Of a stretch of DNA of 64,000 nt, positions 48,709 to 63,180 are shown one piece after another (position 1 is the stretch's first letter; each line of letters begins with the position of its first letter). The position numbers were made by a program, and so were the translations under genes. The notes beneath the pieces were generated by a model that was not told the DNA's origin, did not search any database, and saw only the letters and a list, made by a program, of their open reading frames with translations. The stretch comes from Pseudanabaenaceae cyanobacterium SKYG29. Its GTDB lineage: Bacteria; Cyanobacteriota; Cyanobacteriia; Pseudanabaenales; Pseudanabaenaceae. The stretch is taken from assembly GCA_025055675.1 (NCBI GenBank), contig JANWWT010000004.1:1-64000 (forward strand), read 5' to 3'.

Positions 48709-48806
48709 GACTTCCAGGTTAAACGAGTGTTTAAGTTTGATCCTACAGGTTTCCCCGATCGGTCTGCCGTAGGTTAGTATTGATTTTCCCCTTGAGGAAG
48801 GATACC

Positions 48807-50234
48807 GTGGACATAACGCTAGAAACGCTGTGGAACCGTGTCCTGGAGGAGCTAAAGACCCAGGTGAGTCGTCCTGCCTATGAGACCTGGATTAAGTCGA
48901 TCGTGCCGGAGTCTCTGACGGCGGAGGTATTAACTCTGCGGGTACTCCATTCCTTTGCTAAGATGTGGCTGACCCGTTACTATGCCAATAGTATCAATAG
49001 GATTGTGGCAGATATTCTCGGCTATCCTGTAGAAATTCAGGTGGTCTGTGGGCCAGAGGCGGCCGCCTCGGGAGCCTCGCCGACCGACGCCTCGGGAGCC
49101 TCGTCGACCGAAGCAGAAAAACCAGCAGCGGCAGTCAGTACACCCCCCCGCCGCCTCGGGAGCCTCGCCGACCGATCTCCACACCCTGGTCTCAATCCCA
49201 AATATACCTTTAGCCGGTTTGTCGTAGGTCCCAACAACCGTATGCCCCACGCAGCAGCCTTGGCGGTAGCGGAAGCCCCAGGGCGGGAGTTTAATCCCCT
49301 GTTTTTGTGTGGGGGAGTGGGTTTGGGCAAAACCCATTTGATGCAGGCGATCGCCCATTACCGCTTGGAAATTGTGCCCCAGGCGAAAATTGCCTACGTG
49401 TCTACGGAGCAGTTTACTAACGACCTGATCACCGCCATCCGTAAAGATAGTATGCAGTCCTTTCGCGAGCAGTACCGGGCGATCGATATGATTTTGGTGG
49501 ATGACATCCAGTTCATTGAGGGGAAAGAATACACCCAGGAGGAGTTCTTCCACACGTTTAATGCCCTCTATGAGGCGGGTAAGCAGATTGTTTTAGCCTC
49601 CGATCGTCCCCCTGCCCAAATTCCCCGTCTGCAGGAGCGTTTGTGTTCCCGTTTTTCTATGGGGCTGATCGCTGATATTCAGGCACCTGACCTGGAAACC
49701 CGTATGGCAATTTTGCAAAAGAAGGCGGAGATGGAAAATCTCAAAATTCCGCCCGATGTCATTCACTACATTGCGACCCGTTACACTTCCAATATCAGGG
49801 AACTGGAGGGGGCATTGGTGCGGGTGGTTGCCTACATTTCCATCTCTGGGTTGCCGATGACGGTGGCAAATGTTGCCCCTGTTTTAACTCCCCCAAAGGA
49901 GCCGATCGAGGTATCCCCGGAGTTAGTCCTCAATACGGTCGTGGCAGAACTGAAGGTGAACTTGGAAGACTTGCAGGGAAATTCCCGCCGCCGTGAGATC
50001 AGTCAAGCCCGCCAAATTGCCATGTACTTGATGCGCCAGCACACCAACCTGAGCCTGCCCAAAATTGGGGAAGCCCTAGGCGGCAAAGACCACAGCACGG
50101 TTATGTATAGCTGCGAAAAAATCAGCCAACAGCTTGCCCGCGATGGGGAACTGTCCCAGTTAATCCGACAACTGAGCGATCGGATTTATATCCTCTCCCA
50201 AACGCAAAACCAGTCTATTCCCCCTGCAGGGTAG
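48807..50234 (+). CDS. dnaA: Chromosomal replication initiator DnaA
   Basis: Binds DnaA boxes and opens the origin. With GTG 48807 (GAGGAAGG upstream) it has 475 residues: domain I ([18 protein letters not shown], to about 80), a linker (about 85-125) rich in repeat-derived sequence, AAA+ domain with Walker [16 protein letters not shown] and Walker [15 protein letters not shown], and domain IV with [15 protein letters not shown]. Three copies of a 24-bp repeat lie in the linker. No cluster of DnaA boxes is seen around the gene. The 3' end overlaps the TAXI gene by 20 bp. Confidence 0.97.
49064..49111. repeat. 24-bp dispersed repeat, two tandem copies in dnaA
   Basis: Two head-to-tail copies (49064-49087 and 49088-49111) of the pdxA-type element; the second differs by one base (CTCGTCGACCGA at its end). 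Translated in the dnaA frame they give ASGASPTD and ASGASSTE. Confidence 0.92.
49152..49175. repeat. 24-bp dispersed repeat, third copy in dnaA
   Basis: An exact copy of the element, 40 bp after the tandem pair, but in a different reading frame, giving RLGSLADR in DnaA. The use of two frames argues for independent insertions and not protein-level duplication. Confidence 0.92.
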
Positions 50235-53218: not shown

Positions 53219-54022
53219 TTAGACCTCCCTGCCAACAAATTGAATAGGTCCCTCTGTACTGCCTGAAAAAAATTGACGTAGGTAAGGATTATCCGCGCGA
53301 TCGACCTCCTCTGTTGCCCCTTCCCATCTAATTTTACCCTGATATAAAAAAATCACGCGATCGCTAGTGCGTCGGATGGTACTGTGCTGATGGGTAACAA
53401 CCACATAGCTGTCACAGACTTTTTGCCTAACCTTAAGGTCGCGGATTAAATCTTCAATAATGGTGGAAGCGATGGGGTCGAGTCCCGCTGTTGGTTCATC
53501 GTAGAGGAGAATTTTTTGGGCAGTTTGAGAACACCTTGGGTCTTCTGTAATGGCTCTGGCAAAACTCACTCGCTTGCGCATCCCCCCGGATAGCTGACTG
53601 GGATAGCGATCGAGAATACCCGTTAAACCTACCATTGCTAGTTTTTGTTCCACAATTGCTAGAATTTCCTTGGGCTTGAGACAGCCATTTTGCCACAAAG
53701 TAAACCCCACATTTTCTGCTACCGTCAGGGAGTCAAATAGAGCTGCCTGCTGAAATACCATGCCCACATGGACAGAATTACTGCCCCCCACCTGTGTAAT
53801 TTTCTCCCCATTGAGCCACACCTCCCCCGCATCAGGTTCCAGTAAACCACACATGATTTTCAAAACCGTCGATTTCCCAGTCCCCGATGGTCCAATAATT
53901 GCTACTGCTTCCCCCGCATAAATGTCTAAACTAATGCCGTCTAGTACTACATTCTGACCAAAACTTTTTCTGACATCCCTAAGAGAAATGAGGGCAGCCA
54001 TGATAACAATCGGCAAAGGCAT
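53219..54022 (-). CDS. MlaF-type ABC transporter ATPase
   Basis: Energises lipid transport with the MCE protein next to it. 267 residues from ATG 54022: IIGPSGTGKSTVLKIMCGLL (Walker A), LSGGMRKRVSFARAI (signature) and LLYDEPTAGLDPI (Walker B). The start is ambiguous: GGAGGG is only 1 bp before ATG 54022, while TTG 54016 has better spacing and ATG 54001 starts at MAALISLRDV. TGD3/MlaF assignment rests on the pairing with the MCE gene. Confidence 0.9.
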   Translation of the reverse strand: MPLPIVIMAALISLRDVRKSFGQNVVLDGISLDIYAGEAVAIIGPSGTGKSTVLKIMCGLLEPDAGEVWLNGEKITQVGGSNSVHVGMVFQQAALFDSLTVAENVGFTLWQNGCLKPKEILAIVEQKLAMVGLTGILDRYPSQLSGGMRKRVSFARAITEDPRCSQTAQKILLYDEPTAGLDPIASTIIEDLIRDLKVRQKVCDSYVVVTHQHSTIRRTSDRVIFLYQGKIRWEGATEEVDRADNPYLRQFFSGSTEGPIQFVGREV

Positions 54023-54050
54023 ACCCTCCAATTTTAACAAAATTCAATCC

Positions 54051-54560
54051 CTAAAAATCATGCTTGCCCAAATAATCAACTTTGCCTAGCTCTACCCCAT
54101 TGTGGCGCAAAATAGCGTAAGCAGTTGTCATGTGAAAATAAAAGTTCGGTACCATGAAATACAGCAAAAAGTTAATACCGCTCACCTGCAGTGTCCTCTC
54201 CCGCGTGGGGAGGGCGATTTCTGTCGCTTCTTTGCCGTCGATTTGCTCTGGGGTCAGGGTCTCCATAAAGGCGATCGTGTCCTTAATCCGATCGATCAAT
54301 TCACCAAAGGTCGTCTCTTTATCCTCGATAACAGGGACTTCTACGCCTGCCAGTCTGGCTGCACCCCGACGGGCTATATCTGAGGCAATTTGCACCTGCC
54401 GCACGAGGGGGAACATATCGGGAAATAACCGTGCTTGCAGCAATACACTAGGGTCAATCTTCTTTGCCTCGGCATAGGCAGCTCCTTTTTCCAGGATGTT
54501 AATCAAATTTTGCAGAGAACGCACCAAGGACTTCACTACCTGAAACATGGAAATCGGCAT
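54051..54560 (-). CDS. DUF1993 domain protein
   Basis: 169 residues of the DUF1993 family (DinB-like four-helix fold). MFQVVKSLVRSLQNLINILEK, LLQARLFPDMFPLVRQVQIA and YFMVPNFYFHMTTAYAILRH are typical; His residues near the end may bind metal, but that is not shown. It lies 28 bp before the mlaF-like start on the same strand, perhaps co-transcribed. Function unknown. Confidence 0.88.
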   Translation of the reverse strand: MPISMFQVVKSLVRSLQNLINILEKGAAYAEAKKIDPSVLLQARLFPDMFPLVRQVQIASDIARRGAARLAGVEVPVIEDKETTFGELIDRIKDTIAFMETLTPEQIDGKEATEIALPTRERTLQVSGINFLLYFMVPNFYFHMTTAYAILRHNGVELGKVDYLGKHDF

Positions 54561-54612
54561 AACTCACCTCCAAGCATGCCCCGCTATTCTCCCCTCCCCC
54601 GTTTCCCTAAAA

Positions 54613-54639
54613 TGTAAATTTTTATTACAAAATGTAACA
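54613..54639. promoter_or_regulatory. TGTAA/TTACA inverted repeat upstream of cpcG
   Basis: TGTAA (54613-54617) and TTACA (54625-54629) form an inverted repeat with a third TGTAAC at 54633-54638. On the minus strand two TTACATT direct repeats lie 12 bp apart. RpaB HLR1 sites are such direct repeats but 2 bp apart, so the resemblance is partial. Confidence 0.35.
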
Positions 54640-54672
54640 ATCTAGGGGGGGAAATTTGATCAAACCAAGGCG

Positions 54673-54678
54673 TATAAT
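54673..54678 (+). promoter_or_regulatory. -10 element of cpcG
   Basis: TATAAT preceded by G (extended type), about 52 bp upstream of the GTG start, leaving a leader with AAAAAGGAG. No matching -35 at 17 bp; TTGATC at 54656 is too close (11 bp). Confidence 0.55.
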
Positions 54679-54729
54679 ACCTTATGATTGGAGTAATCAA
54701 ATCCCCATAATAAAAAGGAGTTTTTTAAC

Positions 54730-55482
54730 GTGGTACTACCTCTTTTAGAATATGCTCCCTCTAGCCAAAACCAGCGGGTAAAAGGTTTTGAAGTGCCAGG
54801 GGACGAGCAACCCCGTATCTACTCTTCGGAAAATCTCCTGTCTCCCAGTGAAATGGACGAACTAATTGAGGCGGCATATCGGCAGATTTTCTTCCATGCC
54901 TTTGAGTCCGATCGGGAGCGGTTTTTGGAGTCCCAGTTGCGGGCAGGGCAGATTACGGTACGGGATTTCATTCGTGGGTTGCTTCTGTCTAACACCTATC
55001 GCCGTAGCTTCTACGACCTCAACAGCAACTATCGCTTTGTGGAACAGACGGTGCAACGGGTACTAGGTCGGGACGTGTACAACAACGCGGAAAAGTTGGC
55101 ATGGTCGATCGTGGTTGCCCAGAAGGGGATCAAGGGGTTCGTGGATATGCTCCTCGACAGCGAGGAATACATGGAGAACTTCGGCTATGACAAAGTGCCC
55201 TACCAGCGGCGGCGGGTATTGCCTGGTCGTCCTACGGGAGAAATGCCTTTCAATATCAAGTCCCCCCGCTATGATGAATACTATCGGGCTAAGTTTGGCT
55301 TCCCGCAGTTTATTTGGCAGGTTACAGTCAAGAGCTTTGTGCCCCAGGAGAGAAAACTACGGGCAGGCGATCCTGCAGCTTTCCTCAACATGGCGCGGTC
55401 AATCAGTCCCAAAGCCAATTCACCCCAGCGTATTTCCGCCCAAAATATCGACTACGAACGTCTAGTTCCCCGTCGCCGCTAA
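54730..55482 (+). CDS. cpcG: Phycobilisome rod-core linker CpcG
   Basis: Attaches phycocyanin rods to the allophycocyanin core of the phycobilisome. 250 residues with the linker domain at about 15-160 ([75 protein letters not shown]), no membrane helix, so it is the core-binding CpcG1 form and not the PSI-type CpcL. GTG 54730 follows AAAAAGGAG. No cpcBA is in the window. Confidence 0.96.
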
Positions 55483-55503
55483 TTCCCAACCAAAAACTGA
55501 CTG

Positions 55504-55524
55504 AGGGGCAGCTGCCCCTTTTAT
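55504..55524 (+). terminator. Rho-independent terminator of cpcG
   Basis: A perfect palindrome AGGGGCAGCTGCCCCT (55504-55519) followed by TTTT, 22 bp after the cpcG stop. It also touches the end of the opposing HTH gene, but has no T run on that strand. Confidence 0.85.
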
Positions 55525-55913
55525 TTAGGCTTGAAGCCCAATTCCAACAAGGCACGATAGAGCTGGGCACGGGAAGGGACAGTGACAGGGGGTTCCAATT
55601 CCATTTCCCTGACAGTAGCAAGAATTTCCCGCAGGATTAAATCCAAAGTATTATCAGTAGCAGCAGCCACTCGCCCCTCGTAAGCCAGGCTGTAGAGTTC
55701 CAGGTGGTGTTTCCCCATAGCTTTTGCCAGTTTTTGTAGAGTTTCAGGGGTGGGGCAAGTGCCCTTAAAACAAGCTCCCCTTAAACGCGGCTGGGGTATA
55801 CCTGCCAACTCTGCCAAACGATTCATACTCATTCCCTTGCTTTCCAGGTATTGCAGAATGTATTTGCCGAGGGGAGAACAGTCTTCTAATTTGACCTGTA
55901 AACGGGGGGGCAT
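55521..55913 (-). CDS. Small helix-turn-helix (XRE-like) protein
   Basis: 130 residues from ATG 55913 (MPPRLQVKLEDCS); ATG 55952 is in frame and would add 13. The HTH is at about 20-72: YILQYLESKGMSMNRLAELA, with TPETLQKLAKAMGKHHLEL, like XRE/Cro domains. The C-terminal 60 residues are unassigned. The protein could regulate cpcG or a remote target; nothing here shows which. Convergent with cpcG. Confidence 0.65.
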   Translation of the reverse strand: MPPRLQVKLEDCSPLGKYILQYLESKGMSMNRLAELAGIPQPRLRGACFKGTCPTPETLQKLAKAMGKHHLELYSLAYEGRVAAATDNTLDLILREILATVREMELEPPVTVPSRAQLYRALLELGFKPK

Positions 55914-56034
55914 GGTAACAAAAACTACCCTGGTGGCTTTCCAGTCTAGCATTAGGGCACAGAGATAAAACTTAACAATCTAAAAGTGAGGGCTGTTTTA
56001 CACTCAAACCAAAAAGGCAGGGAGTTTAATAACT

Positions 56035-56856
56035 ATGTTTAATCATGTACTTTTAGGGATTGAGGGATCGGGGCGTGCCCGGGAAATGATGAATATGCTG
56101 CTACCGTTGCCCAGTTTTGCTCGCACCAAAATTACTTTGCTCCATGTTGTCCCCAGTCAAATCACTGCTGAAGGAGTAGAGGAGTATCGTCAAGCGGGGC
56201 AGAAGATTTTAGAGCGGGAAAGTGCTGCCCTCAAATTGGGAGCAGAGAACTCCTACACAACTATTTTGGCAGAAGGTGACCCTAAAACTGAGATCTGTCG
56301 TGTGGCAGATGAACTAAAGCCTGATTTTTTGATCATGGGTTCACGGGGTTTAGGCAGAATTCAGGCCATTTTGTCTAATTCTGTCAGTCAGTATGTCTTT
56401 CAGCTTGCCTCTGTACCCATGCTGTTAGTTAAAGATGATATTTACATCCAAACCATTAGACGGGTGTTGATTGCCCTCGATCGTTCTGCTGCTGCGCAAA
56501 AGTGCCTAGAGTTTGCCCTCAATTTTCTGCAAGGGACAAAGGATATAGATGTGTATGTTGTACACGTAACTAACAAAGAAATGGGTCAGGATGAGGTGCT
56601 AGCAGAAGCAGGACTGAAATTACAGAGAATGGGCTTCAGCGCTAAACTCCTGCCTCGTGTGGGTGAGACGGGTAAAGAAATTTGTGCCTGTGCTGAGGAG
56701 AACAACATCAACTTGTTGTTTTTAGCTTCCCCCGAGCGTCGTCCTTCCATTGCCAGGGGTTTACCTGACCTCGATCGGTTGTTGGGCAGTTCTGTTTCCG
56801 ACTATGTAAGGGTTCATGCCCCCTGTGGCGTGATGTTGGTACGGACAGAAGAATAA
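56035..56856 (+). CDS. Universal stress protein, tandem UspA domains
   Basis: 273 residues of two UspA domains: 1-135 (HVLLGIEGSGRA, LIMGSRGLGRIQAILSNSVS) and 143-272 (RVLIALDRSAAAQKCLEFAL). The GSRGxGRxxxxLxGS-like nucleotide motif is clear in the first half and degenerate in the second (ASPERRPSIARGL). ATP-binding stress protein; the target is not known. A 40-bp gap precedes the ParA gene. Confidence 0.9.
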   Translation: MFNHVLLGIEGSGRAREMMNMLLPLPSFARTKITLLHVVPSQITAEGVEEYRQAGQKILERESAALKLGAENSYTTILAEGDPKTEICRVADELKPDFLIMGSRGLGRIQAILSNSVSQYVFQLASVPMLLVKDDIYIQTIRRVLIALDRSAAAQKCLEFALNFLQGTKDIDVYVVHVTNKEMGQDEVLAEAGLKLQRMGFSAKLLPRVGETGKEICACAEENNINLLFLASPERRPSIARGLPDLDRLLGSSVSDYVRVHAPCGVMLVRTEE

Positions 56857-56896
56857 TCTGTTAGAATCTGGGAAGTTTAGCTAGGGTGCCCCTTCT

Positions 56897-57769
56897 ATGA
56901 AAGTAGTTACTGTTTACCACAATAAAGGCGGTGTAGGCAAAACCACTACTGTCGTAAATTTGGGGGCAGGTCTAGCTAGGAGGGGGTATAGGGTTCTACT
57001 AATTGACCTAGATAGTCAAGCCAATACTACCTATGCTACAGGACTGGCGAAGTCTATCTATGAAGAGGATGATTACTTCATAGCTAACAACTTTGTTGCT
57101 CTCTTGGAAAACGTCTATACTGAGGTGAAGGATGTAACCATACGGGCATCTTATTCTTCCTTCCCTGTAGATGTTATTCCCTCTCATATTTCCACTACGG
57201 AATCAGAATCAGAACTTCAGGCTAAGGATGCTGCTTTGACGCAAATTAGACTACGCAAAAAATTAGAGTCAGTATCCTATGATTATGATTTTGTAGTGAT
57301 TGATACTCCCCCTGCCATTGGCTTGTTTGCCAGAGTTGCCCTAGCAACCTGTGATTATCTGATAATTCCTTCTGACCTAAGAGCGTTTGCTACCCAAGGC
57401 TTAAAAAATGTCATTAACTTTATGACAGGACTAAATGAATTTAGACAGGAGGTAGGTAGAACGGAGATTTTAGTATTGGGTGTCTTGCCCTCAAAAATTC
57501 CTACAAACCCTAAGTTCATAGAAAAAACCTTGCCAGGGTTAGAGGAGAAGGTAAGGCAGAGGTATAAGCTTCCCCTTTTTGAGACCAGAATATATGAAAG
57601 AACTGAGCTGGCAAAGTGTCTATCCAATGAGGTAATAATAACTGGAGAGACACCAGAGGACATAGCCTATGTTCCTGACCCTAAGTCGATATTTGACTAC
57701 GCTCCAGATTCTAAATCTGTGGTAGAATTCAGCAGCCTAGTAGAGGAAGTTTTGCGGAAAGTTAAATGA
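56897..57769 (+). CDS. ParA-type partition ATPase
   Basis: 290 residues. Deviant Walker A NKGGVGKTTTVVNLGAG (residues 9-25), A' motif LLIDLDSQANTTY, Walker B VVIDTPPAIG. Short form without the N-terminal HTH of plasmid type Ia. The region is more A+T-rich than its neighbours by eye. The C-terminal part (EDIAYVPDPKSIFDYAP) is unlike chromosomal Soj. The next gene, overlapping by 4 bp, codes a ParB-like partner. Cargo (DNA, carboxysome or other) is not indicated; it is not adjacent to a small McdB-like gene. Confidence 0.87.
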   Translation: MKVVTVYHNKGGVGKTTTVVNLGAGLARRGYRVLLIDLDSQANTTYATGLAKSIYEEDDYFIANNFVALLENVYTEVKDVTIRASYSSFPVDVIPSHISTTESESELQAKDAALTQIRLRKKLESVSYDYDFVVIDTPPAIGLFARVALATCDYLIIPSDLRAFATQGLKNVINFMTGLNEFRQEVGRTEILVLGVLPSKIPTNPKFIEKTLPGLEEKVRQRYKLPLFETRIYERTELAKCLSNEVIITGETPEDIAYVPDPKSIFDYAPDSKSVVEFSSLVEEVLRKVK

Positions 57770-58482
57770 AGAAGCTTTTGGTTAACCTAGTAGAAATTGA
57801 TGCCATTCAATCAACATACAGTAGAAGCGAGTTTAATGAGCAAGAGTTAGAGAGAATTGCTAGACAAGTCCTATCTTGTAGGGGAGTTATAAACCCCATT
57901 CTTTTGAAACGCATTAACTTACTAAAATTTGAAGTTTTGGATGGTCATTTTGAGTATTATGCCGCCGTGAAAGCTAAAGAACTTGACCATACCTTCGATG
58001 AGGTGCAGGCTATAATTTTGCCTGAAGATGAAGCAGTGCAAGCAGCAATTATCGAGCAGTATAAAGAACTGAGGAAAAGCAAAAGTAATGGGGACTCCTA
58101 TAGAGAGTTTTTCCTAGAAATCCAACAAACTCTGAGTCAAATCCAAACAGACATTCATGAATTAAAGACAGTCTTACAAGCTTTAAGTCAGTTGCAAGCA
58201 GATGGCAATAACCCGATTAAAAATCATATTACCAAAAAAGTTCTGCCACCACCTCCCTTGGATTACTCCAATTTGATTGACGCTATGAATACCCTAGACG
58301 AGAGGGCGCTAGAAGATAAATTGTCGTATTTTTATAAGGGACGTTATCCGAGAACACAAGCTAAAAAAGTAATAGATGCCAGGTGCCAGAAACCTTTTGC
58401 TACTGTGGAGGATTTACGCAGGATCTTTGGTAAAGACAAGCTGGCTGAGATGAGAAAAAACTGGGATAAGACTCACCCCTGA
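57766..58482 (+). CDS. ParB-like protein with C-terminal helix-hairpin-helix-like domain
   Basis: 238 residues. The N-terminal 90 residues resemble the ParB/sulfiredoxin-like fold: VEIDAIQSTYSRSEFNEQEL, RQVLSCRGVINPILLKR and VLDGHFEYYAAVKAKEL. The GERR box of CTP-hydrolysing ParB is DGHFEY here. Residues 115-160 are coiled-coil-like. The end (LSYFYKGRYPRTQAKKVIDA, FATVEDLRRIFGKDKLAEM) resembles a ComEA-type helix-hairpin-helix, not the usual HTH. Overlap ATGA with parA couples the two. Confidence 0.7.
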   Translation: MKKLLVNLVEIDAIQSTYSRSEFNEQELERIARQVLSCRGVINPILLKRINLLKFEVLDGHFEYYAAVKAKELDHTFDEVQAIILPEDEAVQAAIIEQYKELRKSKSNGDSYREFFLEIQQTLSQIQTDIHELKTVLQALSQLQADGNNPIKNHITKKVLPPPPLDYSNLIDAMNTLDERALEDKLSYFYKGRYPRTQAKKVIDARCQKPFATVEDLRRIFGKDKLAEMRKNWDKTHP

Positions 58483-58555
58483 CTCAAGTCACACTGCTAT
58501 TTTAGCTATATGCTACGCTGGTATGTATGTGTATACGGGTTGAGGGAGAAATGCC

Positions 58556-59011
58556 GTGAACAGTTCTGAACAGAAGACCCCACGCCATTTACTCGTGATT
58601 ATTGACCATCAGGGCAAGCGCACTTACAATTTGCAGGCAAGTATGTACTCCATTGGTCGGGATGAGAGCAATGCGATCGTCTTAAAATCGGACAAAATTT
58701 CCCGTCAGCACGCTATGTTGATTAGAATGCCTCTCCCTGATGGTAAGGGCTACCGCTATAAGATTCAAGACGGCAATTTAGAGGGTAAGAAAAGTGTCAA
58801 CGGAATTACAGTCAACGGCAAACAGGTGGACTCGGCGGAGCTAAAGAACGGAGATATGATTGTGTTTGGGGGTGTGGCGCAGGCGGCTTACTACTTGAAG
58901 AATCTGACCGATCGGGAACTGGCTGATTACAGCAAGCAACCAGAATACAAAAGTCTCAAGGGTAAGATTACTGACCCAGAAAAGACCGTGGCTATGCTCG
59001 ATGACGATTAA
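58556..59011 (+). CDS. FHA-domain protein
   Basis: 151 residues with one FHA domain (about 12-115) that binds phosphothreonine: MYSIGRDESNAIVLKSDKIS, SRQHAML, VNGITVNG. GTG 58556 has GGGAGA upstream; the nearby ATG is closed by a stop. The C-terminus is a short acidic tail. The last 11 bp overlap sbcD. The partner kinase is unknown. Confidence 0.88.
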   Translation: MNSSEQKTPRHLLVIIDHQGKRTYNLQASMYSIGRDESNAIVLKSDKISRQHAMLIRMPLPDGKGYRYKIQDGNLEGKKSVNGITVNGKQVDSAELKNGDMIVFGGVAQAAYYLKNLTDRELADYSKQPEYKSLKGKITDPEKTVAMLDDD

Positions 59012-60236
59012 AGTCCTCCATTTGGCTGATATTCACCTGGGCAGTTTGGCTCATGGCAAGGTCAACCCCACCACTGGTGTCAATTCTAGGCTGGAAGATT
59101 TCACTCGCAGTCTAAGTTTATGTATCGATCGGGCAATCACGGAACCCGCTGACTTGGTTCTCTTTGCAGGGGATGCTTTCCCGGATGCGGTTCCCCCTCC
59201 CTATGTACAGCAGGCTTTTGCCCAACAGTTTCGCCGTCTTGCTGATGCCCACATCCCTACGGTTTTGTTAGTGGGGAACCATGACCAACATTGCCAGGGA
59301 CTGGGGGGAGCCAGTTTAGTAATTTATCGTAGTTTGGGGGTACCTGGGTTTATTGTCGGAGACACGATCGCTACCCATACTATTTCTACCCGTGGGGGCA
59401 AAATTCAGGTGATTACGGTACCCTGGTTAACCCGATCGGCTTTACTGACCAAACAGGAGACCCAGGGATTATCGGTGGCCGAGGTGGGAGATTTGTTACT
59501 AGAAAAGCTAACGATTGTCCTAGAGGCAGAAATTCGCCGCCTTGATCCCAACCTGCCTACGGTGCTGTTGGGACACATGATGATTGACACGGCTACCTAT
59601 GGTGCGGAGAGGTTTTTAGCGGCGGGCAAGGGATTTACGATCCCTCTGTCCTTAGTAGCCCGATCGGAATTTGCCTATGTTGCCCTGGGGCATGTACACC
59701 GCCATCAAGTCCTGTGTCAAGAACCACCAGTTGTATATCCTGGCAGTATTGAGCGAGTTGATTTTGGGGAAGAAACAGAGGAGAAAGGCTATTGTTGGGT
59801 AGAAATCAGTAAAAGACAGACAAAATTTACGTTTTGTCCCCTCCCCGCCCGCCAGTTTCGTACTATTTCTGTAGACTTGACCAATTCTGAGCAGCCCCTA
59901 CAGGAGTTGTTAAAAACGATCGGGGAACACAATATCACAGACACCATAGTGCGCCTGCGCTACCAAATCAAGCCAGAGCAAGTTTCTTCTCTAGATCAGC
60001 ATCTGATTCACCAAGCCCTTGCCAGTGCCCATACCTACAAAATTATTGCGGAAGTGCAGGAAACTCGCCCCCGCATTCGTCTGCCTGATTTGACGCCAGA
60101 GCAAGTCCTTGACCCCCTCTCTGCCCTGAAACATTATCTGTCCAAGCGAGAAGATTTACGGTCTTTAGAATCTGACCTTATCAGTGCTGCGCAGACTCTC
60201 CTAGAACCAGCAGGGGGGCAGCTCTCCCTGATTTAA
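59001..60236 (+). CDS. sbcD: DNA repair exonuclease SbcD (Mre11-type)
   Basis: Nuclease subunit of the SbcCD complex that processes hairpins and DNA ends. 411 residues with metal motifs LHLADIHLGS, LFAGDAFPD, LVGNHDQH, LGHMMID and ALGHVHRHQV. sbcC is not adjacent. The start lies in the FHA gene, so FHA and SbcD are translationally coupled; this hints at phospho-dependent control but nothing more. Confidence 0.93.
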   Translation: MTIKVLHLADIHLGSLAHGKVNPTTGVNSRLEDFTRSLSLCIDRAITEPADLVLFAGDAFPDAVPPPYVQQAFAQQFRRLADAHIPTVLLVGNHDQHCQGLGGASLVIYRSLGVPGFIVGDTIATHTISTRGGKIQVITVPWLTRSALLTKQETQGLSVAEVGDLLLEKLTIVLEAEIRRLDPNLPTVLLGHMMIDTATYGAERFLAAGKGFTIPLSLVARSEFAYVALGHVHRHQVLCQEPPVVYPGSIERVDFGEETEEKGYCWVEISKRQTKFTFCPLPARQFRTISVDLTNSEQPLQELLKTIGEHNITDTIVRLRYQIKPEQVSSLDQHLIHQALASAHTYKIIAEVQETRPRIRLPDLTPEQVLDPLSALKHYLSKREDLRSLESDLISAAQTLLEPAGGQLSLI

Positions 60237-60293
60237 TTATTGTTTCCTGGAAATAGAATCTGACCTTCCCCTATGATAAAAGCAGGTTAAATC

Positions 60294-61280
60294 ATGTCGA
60301 CCATGGGACGGGCAGTAGCTCTCAGTGTAGTCATATTGTTAAGTGGGTGCGTTCTCACTCACCCCCCTAAGCCCTTTAAGGATGAAATGCCTATTTCTCG
60401 CCCGATTGCCCACCTAGAACAGTCCCAGGCAACTCAAGTTTTATTCCTCAACAGCAAAACCCCTAAGACAACTACAGGAGGGATTGCCCTCCGATCGGGA
60501 GAAATCGTGACAACTGACAGCCAAGGCACAGCCCAAATTCAGTTCCACAATCGCACCCGCAGTCGCCTTGCCCGCCAGACCGAGGTAAAACTACAATCAG
60601 CCCAGAGCTTGGCACTCAGACAGGGAAGCATCATTGTTGATAGCCCTGACTTTTTCCAGGTTAACACCAAATTTGGACGAGTCACTGCCACCAATGCTAC
60701 TTTTTATGTTGAGACCACTCCTGCTCCCTGGCAAAGCAGTCAAATCGTGGTTCTGCGCGGCCAAGTAGAAAGTTTTATTCTCAACTCGGAAGGCAAGATT
60801 GTTATCAAAGGTGGAGAAGCTGTTACTATTACCCCTTTGGGTCTTCCCTGGAAAATTTACCAGCTCCAGGCAAAAGACCGTCAGTATTGGCTACAGAAAA
60901 TTAAACAATTGTTTAAGTTCAGTGACCGTCTACCCGTGGAAGTAGTTTTCCATGCTCCCCTACCTACCCCCAAGCCCAAGCCAAGTCCTACTTTCCGCCC
61001 TGATTCCCCCTTTGTAGAAGCAGCATCGGACTCCTACTACTACTCACCTCCTCCTACATCCTACGAACAGGAACCCTACTACGACTACGCTCCTCCCCAA
61101 CCCGTTGTCAGAGCTGCTCCCCCCCCTCAGGTAGCTCCCCCACCACCGGAACCAGCACCACCCCCCCCTGTAGTATATGAACCACCTCCCCCAGAGCCAG
61201 AGGTGCCCCCCGTTCAGGTGCCTGTAGCACCAGAACCACCGCCGTTGGAGCTGCCAGAACCAAGTGAAAACACTGAATAA
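60294..61280 (+). CDS. FecR-domain lipoprotein with proline-rich tail
   Basis: 328 residues. Lipobox LLSGC (Cys19) gives a lipoprotein; FecR-like domain at about 60-185 (LRSGEIVTTDSQGTAQIQF, LRQGSIIVDSP, VLRGQV); the last 100 residues are Pro/Glu-rich with Tyr. Such proteins may be envelope scaffolds. ATG 60294 or 60303 are equally possible. TATGATAAAAG just upstream may be the -10. No FecI or TonB-receptor gene is nearby. Confidence 0.85.
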   Translation: MSTMGRAVALSVVILLSGCVLTHPPKPFKDEMPISRPIAHLEQSQATQVLFLNSKTPKTTTGGIALRSGEIVTTDSQGTAQIQFHNRTRSRLARQTEVKLQSAQSLALRQGSIIVDSPDFFQVNTKFGRVTATNATFYVETTPAPWQSSQIVVLRGQVESFILNSEGKIVIKGGEAVTITPLGLPWKIYQLQAKDRQYWLQKIKQLFKFSDRLPVEVVFHAPLPTPKPKPSPTFRPDSPFVEAASDSYYYSPPPTSYEQEPYYDYAPPQPVVRAAPPPQVAPPPPEPAPPPPVVYEPPPPEPEVPPVQVPVAPEPPPLELPEPSENTE

Positions 61281-61335
61281 TTTGATATTTCTGTTGCGCT
61301 ATGCCAGTCTGTATTCACTACCCCAAAAGGGGGAA

Positions 61336-63180
61336 TTAAACACCGTAGTCGGGATGAAAGAAGCTATAAACTTTGTAGGCTAACTTTTCCCCAATCCCAG
61401 GGGTGGTAGCAATGTGTTCTAAACTAGCCTGCCGTAAATACTCGACGCTGTGGAACTTCTCTAATAGTAATTTCTGCCGTTGTCTCCCCAAGCCAGGAAT
61501 CTGATCAAGAATGGATTGTTGCATTCTCTGACTGCGTTTTTGCCGATGAAAACTTACAGCAAAGCGATGGGCTTCATCTCGCACTCGCCGTAAAAGTTGC
61601 AGCCCTGGATGTTCCCGATCGATAACTAAAGGTTCACTTTTACCTGGTAGAAAAATCTCTTCTCTTTTCTTTGCCAAGCCAATGACAGTAAAAGCTTCTG
61701 CTAAACCATATTTCCGTAAAACAGACATAACTGCCGAGAGCTGACCTTTACCGCCATCAATCATCACCAGTTCAGGATAGTCATCTTGAGGTTTGCTGGG
61801 ATGAAATCTTCTACTGATTACTTCTGCCATACTGGCAAAATCGTCCGCATGACCTGCTTGCACCTCTGGATGACGAATTTTGTAGTGACGATAGAATTGT
61901 TTGGCGGGCAACCCATCGATAAACACAACTTGACTTGCTACTACATCTGTACCTTGAATGTGGGAAATGTCATAACCTTCGATGCGGCGGGGGATGTCTT
62001 CTAAGCCTAGTATCTCAGTTAAACCCTCTAGGCTAGCTAAATTCCGATCGTTCTGTTTCTGAATACGGGCTAGTTCATACTGGGCGTTCCGTTCCACCAT
62101 TTCAATCAATTCAGCTTTCTGTTGCCTTTGTGGCGTAAAAAGATAGACCTTCTTTTGTTTCCTTTCACTTAACCAGGCTGATAGTAGTTCTCCCTCTGGT
62201 AGTTCTAGTTGGGTGTGAATTTCCGTCGGTATCTCCTGGGGTTCACAGTTTTGGTAATGAGCTTCTAATGTCCGTTGCAAGATCATAGCGGGGTCAGCAC
62301 TCTGGCTGTCAGCTACAAAACCTAAACGACCAACTAAACGCCCTGCACGAATTTGAAATAACTGAATACAGGTGTGGTGTTCATCTTGGGCTAGGGCAAT
62401 AGCATCACGGGAAATAGTGTCATCGGGTAGGGTCACTTTTTGGTCACTGTGCAGTGCTTTTAGGGTATTAATCTGATCGCGAATTTTCGCTGCCTGTTCA
62501 AATTCCAGATTCTCGGCGTGCTGTTCCATCCGTTCTGTCAAACTATCAACCAGCTCTTTGATTCTGCCCTGGAAAACCATTCCTACTTTGTGCATTGTGC
62601 GGCGATACTCTTCTGGACTAATAAGCTTTTGGCACACACCAGGACAAAGTCCAATATCATAGTTTAAGCAGGGTCGGTCTTTGAACAGGGGTTGGGGTCG
62701 CTGCCGTAAGGGAAAAATCCGTTTTACTATCGATAATGTCCGCTTGAGGGCAAAACTGTCTACGTACGGACCATAATAACGATCGCGGGGGTTACCTGTC
62801 TTTCTTCTAGTAATAAAGATGCGGGGATATTCCTCTGACCAGGTAATGCAGACGTAGGGATATTTTTTATCATCTTTTAGTAAAACATTGTAGTAGGGTT
62901 GATATTGCTTAATTAGGTTATCCTCTAGGGCAAGGGCTTCTGCTTCTGTATCTGTGACGATGAATTCAATCTCCCACACTAGCTGTACCATCATGGCAAT
63001 GCGGGGGGAGAGTTCCAAAGACGATCGGAAATATGACCTTACTCTATTTCTTAGGTTTTTCGATTTGCCAATGTAGAGTACCTGATCGTCCTTGCCACGC
63101 ATGAAGTAAACGCCAGGCTCAGGGGGTATTTCTTTTAGTCGCTCTTCTAGTTTGTCTTTGTTTTGCACTAGAGGTGTCAT
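61336..63180 (-). CDS. uvrC: Excinuclease ABC subunit C
   Basis: Makes the dual incision in nucleotide excision repair. 614 residues: GIY-YIG domain ([20 protein letters not shown]), Cys motif [16 protein letters not shown] domain ([13 protein letters not shown]), RNase H-like nuclease ([28 protein letters not shown]) and a C-terminal HhH pair ([24 protein letters not shown]). It starts 3 bp after the VWA-like gene, likely the same transcript. Confidence 0.97.

Follow-up and report, generated by a model that had tools for sequence, protein, structure and literature searches.

Sequence comparison places the adjoining ParA and ParB-like genes near one end of the window (the whole 64,000-nucleotide stretch that was analysed) in a two-gene family of Cyanobacteriia, in which a ParA usually fused to a nuclease is paired with a protein built of a ParB_N domain, a coiled coil and a predicted DNA-binding end. 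The window pair is a member that lacks the nuclease, and with a rough probability of 55% we read it as derived from a nuclease-delivery or defence module. ParA-ParB pairs are by default taken to be DNA partition systems, and the original prediction had proposed a partition or positioning system for a cargo other than the chromosome, possibly acquired by transfer.

The window locus and its two proteins

The window comes from the chromosome of a cyanobacterium with a genome of 2.56 Mb and contains, by gene names read from the sequence, dnaA at 48780-50234 and a phycobilisome linker at 54730. Open reading frame (ORF) calls confirm the ParA and partner genes at the predicted positions and strand with their 4-bp overlap. 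The pair lies between a universal stress protein (Usp) gene at 56035-56856 and an FHA-domain gene at 58556-59011, after which comes an SbcD-like gene. The features of the locus are as follows.

56857..56896, no strand: 40-bp gap from the Usp stop to the ParA start, too short for a nuclease remnant (ORF calls)
56897..57769, + strand: ParA-type ATPase, 290 aa, without an N-terminal nuclease domain (ORF calls; Pfam AAA_31 2e-47)
56924..56947, + strand: deviant Walker A motif KGGVGKTT, intact (sequence)
57766..58482, + strand: ParB-like partner, 238 aa, with ParB_N, coiled coil and HhH (ORF calls, Pfam, AlphaFold model)
57790..58059, + strand: ParB_N (ParB/sulfiredoxin-fold), residues 9-98 (Pfam PF02195 E 4.9e-6; Foldseek to Spo0J/ParB, probability 1.00)
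57943..57954, + strand: codons GGT CAT TTT GAG, giving GHFE in place of the GxxR P motif (sequence)
58096..58200, + strand: long helix or coiled coil, residues 111-145 (AlphaFold model, low to moderate confidence)
58261..58479, + strand: HhH-like C-terminal domain of ComEA/HHH_3 type with a degenerate first hairpin, residues 166-238 (model, profile)

Base composition agrees with the A+T-rich region described from the sequence. Of the 53 genes in the window, which average 0.49 in GC content, the partner ranks lowest at 0.391 and ParA third from the bottom at 0.411. A promoter and terminator scan gave no signal above shuffled background, and Rfam had no match from position 54000 to 62000.

The window ParA passes for a ParA/Soj protein on both counts, carrying the deviant Walker A motif (KGGxGK[ST]) and the ParA fold. 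Besides AAA_31 it matches CbiA at 5e-18, and its closest solved relatives in the PDB are Soj proteins. The KGGVGKTT sequence is invariant in its fused homologues (63/63). Neither window protein has a specific family in PADLOC, PHROGs or NCBIfam, and the defence models of PADLOC-DB 2.0 give weak P-loop matches only for ParA and none for the partner.

Inspection of the partner bears out the domain plan that had been proposed for it. The ParB/sulfiredoxin-like N-terminus scores slightly over the curated Pfam cut-off for ParB_N, a domain matched by 36/36 family members, and the AlphaFold model (mean pLDDT 82, with 90-96 in the ParB_N core and 75-96 in the C-terminal domain) resembles the ParB/Spo0J/Noc/KorB/SbnI/sulfiredoxin fold at Foldseek probabilities of up to 1.00 and weak E-values of 0.005-0.01. 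The coiled-coil middle corresponds to the long modelled helix. At the C-terminus, profile comparison with the PDB returns the HhH protein AF1531 (7e-7), a DNA-binding protein (1.8e-6) and ComEA (9e-4), and HHH_3 is found at 1e-12 in the partner of one family member, such that the window partner carries, by profile, the nucleic-acid-binding type of module that marks the family. No HTH family in Pfam matches the window partner, whose model instead runs from the long helix into the HhH domain.

The GERR motif associated with CTP, reported absent in the original prediction, indeed reads GHFE in the window partner. Its GxxR arginine is missing from all 104 partners compared, 92 of which carry Glu at that position, and its loss is thus, as judged from the alignment, a trait of the family and not decay of the window copy. 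A survey of ParB-fold proteins describes this arginine as needed for NTP binding, which was abolished by its loss (PMC12704722). The window partner is predicted to be CTP-independent. With neither HTH nor GxxR arginine it departs, as first supposed, from a normal ParB. The genome encodes no other ParB_N protein, so that neither of the two observations named as refuting the original prediction, an HTH in the partner or a separate chromosomal pair, was made.

A family of pairs with and without a nuclease

Relatives of the window ParA are present in ~70 of 291 Cyanobacteriia genomes, about a quarter, and are spread across many families. The search for ParA-partner pairs in other genomes that had been recommended thus yielded a chromosomal family, mostly nuclease-fused. 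Across ~65 loci, a homologous ParA gene, where present, practically always adjoins a partner gene, which lies directly downstream with an overlap or a short gap; judged from these arrangements, the pairing exceeds chance. Both window genes are homologous to those of the family and adjacent in the same way, and the window ParA shares 42-54% identity with nuclease-fused ParAs, which are ~430-530 aa long.

That length reflects an N-terminal domain of ~140 aa plus a linker, carried by 75 of the 93 ParAs in the tree set. The domain matches PF13588 (HSDR_N_2) at 3e-6 to 3e-4 as well as PF04313 (HSDR_N), conserves a D and an ExK motif (ExK in 63/63), and has HsdR as its best fold match (Foldseek, probability 0.96, E 0.011). 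Because comparison of the nuclease profile with PDB sequences gave chance matches only, assignment as a putative nuclease draws on the Pfam HSDR_N_2 match, the motifs and the weak Foldseek match. This HsdR-type domain, which most but not all members of the family carry, is absent from the window ParA: where the window has its 40-bp gap, nuclease domain and linker together take up ~140-200 codons in the fused homologues. Beyond the window ParA, the search of its own genome for the nuclease domain matched nothing, an empty result that is weak by itself.

Presence of the nuclease on the ParA tree forces at least 5 changes, one of which (L081) may be a contig-edge artefact. Loss appears simpler than gain as the direction of change because a second, distant subfamily is also fused. 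A clear example is locus L148, where a clean deletion of ~445 bp took the nuclease and left its first ~15 codons upstream (L148:5872-6000), while the ParA is otherwise about 91% identical at the DNA level to a fused relative. The window ParA forms the longest end branch of the tree (1.11 substitutions per site), and its placement is therefore uncertain.

The second subfamily (loci L143, L144, L145 and L169-L178) comprises nuclease-ParAs with ExK plus QxxxY, as in HsdR, in 37/291 genomes. A ParB_N-coil partner lies downstream in 10/10 loci, and these partners end in an SAP/Rho_N-like domain, an HhH-like domain or another small domain. Some genomes (G024, G058, G112, G147) contain both subfamilies. 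The C-terminal modules of the partners, which thus vary between HhH and Rho_N/SAP, look nucleic-acid-binding where they can be recognised, and their exchange suggests that this module reads the target DNA. Separately, an additional ParB_N protein, ending in a Rho_N-like domain, was observed a few hundred bases 3' of a complete nuclease-ParA pair at two loci (L128:7078-8163 and L159:7272-8363).

Neighbourhoods, selection and competing readings

Gene neighbourhoods differ between fused and nuclease-less pairs. Several nuclease-less pairs lie inside defence operons. At L134 (2878-7101) and L136 (2621-6840), BrxL, ParA, the partner and a DndA/SspA-like desulfurase form one tight operon, which a kinase-like gene precedes in L134; the arrangement has the look of a BREX/Dnd hybrid with a ParA pair. 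At L112 (233-12001), L130 and L131 the pair occurs with genes for a DrmMI/type IIG-like methylase, RelE-UvrD (GajB-like) and a DEAD/DruE-like helicase, in the order methylase, ParA, partner, RelE-UvrD and helicase, where L112 has two tandem ParA-partner pairs and L131 a GmrSD-like HEC-05 as well; these loci resemble ARMADA type II as described in PMC12458937. At L114 (4624-9664) and L123 (4391-9429), UvrD and a Cas4-like PD-(D/E)XK gene come directly before the nuclease-less ParA and its partner. Overall, defence-type neighbours were counted at 7/13 nuclease-less versus 0-2/28 fused loci (Fisher p 8e-5 to 0.002), where the counts were made by hand and the loci share ancestry, so that the test is indicative only. 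The distribution suggests that cutting would be supplied to the pair in cis in some members and in trans in others. The window pair itself has no defence neighbour and no nuclease in cis or nearby.

The preferred reading, a nuclease-less derivative of a nuclease-delivery or defence module, would operate as follows. ParA-ATP would coat or bind the nucleoid. The partner, without an NTP, would bind certain DNA through its HhH domain, or through SAP/Rho_N in other members, and would dimerise through the coil and stimulate ParA. In fused members, ParA would then bring the HsdR-type nuclease to DNA found by the partner, whereas in other members a neighbouring nuclease or restriction system would supply the cutting. 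The window copy would retain the ATPase and DNA-binding halves and could at most find, mark or position DNA, with no cutting alone. The sequences themselves show membership of the family, the domain plan, the absence of the nuclease and of GxxR, the constraint on the ORFs and the defence operons around several nuclease-less relatives, whereas DNA binding, ParA stimulation, nuclease activity and a role against foreign DNA are properties that we infer from domain content and context.

Against this reading, neither protein is covered by a PADLOC model and the Foldseek E-values are weak. Fused pairs also count against it: their neighbours are mostly housekeeping genes with few PADLOC matches, and they can hold one place within a genus (coaX), as can the nuclease-less g34 pairs (clpB), which is unusual for mobile defence genes. 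What is seen in fused pairs would fit a housekeeping role in DNA maintenance, in which the pair acts on DNA of the cell itself (at replication forks, or in repair, turnover or competence) and not on that of invaders. Such a role could also draw on the strong purifying selection on the family, on the FHA and SbcD-like genes that follow the window pair, and on the searches of plasmids and viral contigs, where the nuclease domain has no relative, and of annotated phages, none of which covers the fusion. It is nonetheless rather improbable, given that the family is patchy, that pairs are lost or moved between congeners, and that nuclease-less relatives lie within BREX and ARMADA-II-like operons.

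Selection on the family is evident from substitution rates. In a sister genus, omega is ~0.1 for the nuclease, ~0.05 for ParA, ~0.13 for ParB_N and 0.2-0.35 for the partner C-terminus, indicating purifying selection. Nuclease-less pairs in three species of genus g34, which hold one place within the genus (beside clpB), likewise have dN/dS well below 1.

Two congeners bear on the history of the pair within the genus of the window organism. In G165 the corresponding position is occupied by a decayed copy (L110:4888-5569), interrupted by stops and frameshifts, of which fragments corresponding to ParA residues 165-290 and partner residues 46-149 remain between flanking proteins that are mostly 83-94% identical; the G165 genome encodes no ParB_N protein at all. 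G291, in turn, carries its complete nuclease-ParA pair elsewhere, next to a gene resembling a protein kinase. From these comparisons the pair is dispensable and accessory, which argues against essential chromosome segregation. Acquisition by transfer, as originally suggested, is possible, but it was not recent, since G165 retains the remains of the pair at the corresponding position.

This history raises the question of whether the window pair is itself a decaying remnant that has lost its nuclease, has little or no function and drifts to extinction as in the congener. The dead G165 orthologue with its many stops and frameshifts, the missing nuclease, the end branch of the window ParA, by far the longest, and changes at some invariant ParA residues (for example SDLKPFAN to SDLRAFAT) all point in that direction. 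Neutral drift, however, would have left many stops. Flanking genes have dS values of 0.64-1.7 relative to the congener, and neutral copies acquire ~7 stops in simulation after 0.1 substitutions per site and ~19 after 0.5, yet both window ORFs (528 codons) are still open, with overlap and Walker motifs intact. By this measure selection has acted on the window pair during most of the period after its lineage separated from the congener. Other nuclease-less pairs are also kept, as in the three g34 species. We therefore regard a functionless remnant as unlikely, albeit one to be reckoned with, and the window copy may still be on its way out, having no defence neighbour, the longest branch and a congener in which its orthologue is dead.

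A ParABS-type system that partitions the chromosome or a plasmid is the reading that the bare arrangement invites, with a ParA that has an intact KGGVGKTT, a ParB_N partner and adjacent overlapping genes. It becomes very unlikely on closer inspection: the partner has no HTH, the GxxR arginine occurs nowhere in the family, a congener lacks any ParB_N protein, and most homologous ParAs are nuclease-fused. A whole-genome search for canonical parS with up to 2 mismatches found none, where a divergent site would escape the search, and the recommended check for centromere-like or iteron-like repeats around the pair returned only short two-copy chance matches. Among 72,556 plasmids there was no match to the partner or the nuclease domain, and the ParA part alone matches ordinary plasmid ParAs at about 30%. 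Part of the original prediction survives these results, in that the pair, with no parS found and with a ParB_N-free congener, is not a chromosomal segregation pair. Partition of a non-chromosomal cargo finds no support, for want of a centromere-like repeat and of plasmid relatives of partner or nuclease. Instead of partition, a fused nuclease and a place in defence operons point to surveillance or restriction of DNA.

A McdAB-like role in positioning carboxysomes or some other protein cargo is the least probable reading, and we give it hardly any weight. A cyanobacterial ParA with a coiled-coil partner does recall that system, as does, loosely, a Trp near the C-terminus of the window partner and of 70/104 partners, the C-terminal Trp being invariant in McdB (PMC11321042). 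In the present family, however, the Trp is not invariant, the partner has ParB_N and HhH domains, no carboxysome gene is adjacent, and the nuclease fused to ParA in relatives would be out of place in organelle positioning. The genome moreover has, on contig C9 (L034:660-2052), another ParA gene (NKGGTGKST) that overlaps a glutamine-rich coiled-coil gene near a gamma-carbonic-anhydrase-like gene, and this may be its Mcd-type positioning pair.

Phage link, known systems and meaning

In the PDB, the partner profile matches most strongly a segment of ~64 residues in a 1717-aa tail protein of Anabaena phage A-4L (9k3a_B), at E 1.7e-8 versus 1.9e-5 for Noc. The segment, encoded at NC_024358.1 21052-21243 (L168), shares the family-specific residues ARE..PR..E.VN..VI.P, and A-4L is the sole phage match to the partner in 50,697 records. 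Against the window ParA, annotated phages give ordinary ParAs at about 30% only, and none covers the fusion; viral contigs give 22 pattern matches with no nuclease-domain relative among them. The A-4L segment may be a decoy or mimic of the host protein, or a domain borrowed for other reasons. Tentatively, and at somewhat less than even odds, the family would represent an undescribed class of surveillance or defence system, in which a nucleoid-binding nuclease-ParA is steered by a nucleotide-blind ParB-fold partner with an exchangeable end that reads DNA, with BREX/ARMADA-II-like systems as hosts to the pair as an add-on and the cyanophage mimic of ParB_N as a possible counter-measure.

Comparison with known systems sets the architecture apart from each of them. 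Canonical ParABS (Soj, Spo0J/ParB, parS) shares a ParA adjoining a ParB_N partner and an N-domain fold like that of Spo0J/ParB/Noc; the window pair lacks HTH and GxxR, no parS was found for it, and its family has a C-terminal HhH or SAP/Rho_N and a ParA that is usually nuclease-fused. Fusions of the ParB-CTPase fold to an extra domain, as surveyed by Kaljevic et al. 2025 (PMC12704722), are similar in plan. In the searched text of that survey, the only fusion named as consistently parA-linked involves DUF3850 and no HhH or Rho_N fusion is mentioned; the present family differs in adjoining parA and in lacking the arginine needed for NTP binding. ParA-ParT-parS of the Streptomyces plasmid SCP2 (PMC12260392) resembles the family in that its ParA partner has no need of CTP, as predicted here; ParT is without the CTPase fold and keeps an HTH, whereas the family described here keeps the fold, has lost the nucleotide motif and has no HTH.

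On the nuclease side, the N-terminal domain of HsdR from type I restriction (PF13588/PF04313) resembles that of the fused homologues in D and ExK motifs and in fold, but here it is fused to ParA rather than to a translocase, and the window copy does not have it. BREX (BrxL) and ARMADA type II are linked to the family through the several homologous nuclease-less pairs inside such operons, neighbours that the window pair lacks; in the searched text of the BREX and ARMADA papers (PMC12839542, PMC12458937) no ParA-ParB-like pair is mentioned. McdA-McdB shares a cyanobacterial ParA with a coiled-coil partner and differs in that McdB has no ParB_N or HhH, in gene context and in the fused nuclease. 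A search of the open literature turned up no description of a ParA fused to an HsdR-type nuclease and paired with a ParB_N-HhH protein. Because subscription papers fell mostly outside its scope, novelty of the architecture is provisional.

The nuclease-ParA family is of more interest than the single nuclease-less copy in the window. It is a widespread chromosomal family in which ParA is usually joined to a restriction-type nuclease and a ParB fold has no nucleotide switch, and it cautions against labelling such pairs chromosome partitioning genes. Repeated loss of the nuclease, after which the pair is kept alone, kept within other defence operons or dying, provides a natural series for dissecting the two halves. 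If the family acts in defence, it would represent a new use of ParA, that is to say, searching the nucleoid or scanning DNA on behalf of a nuclease.
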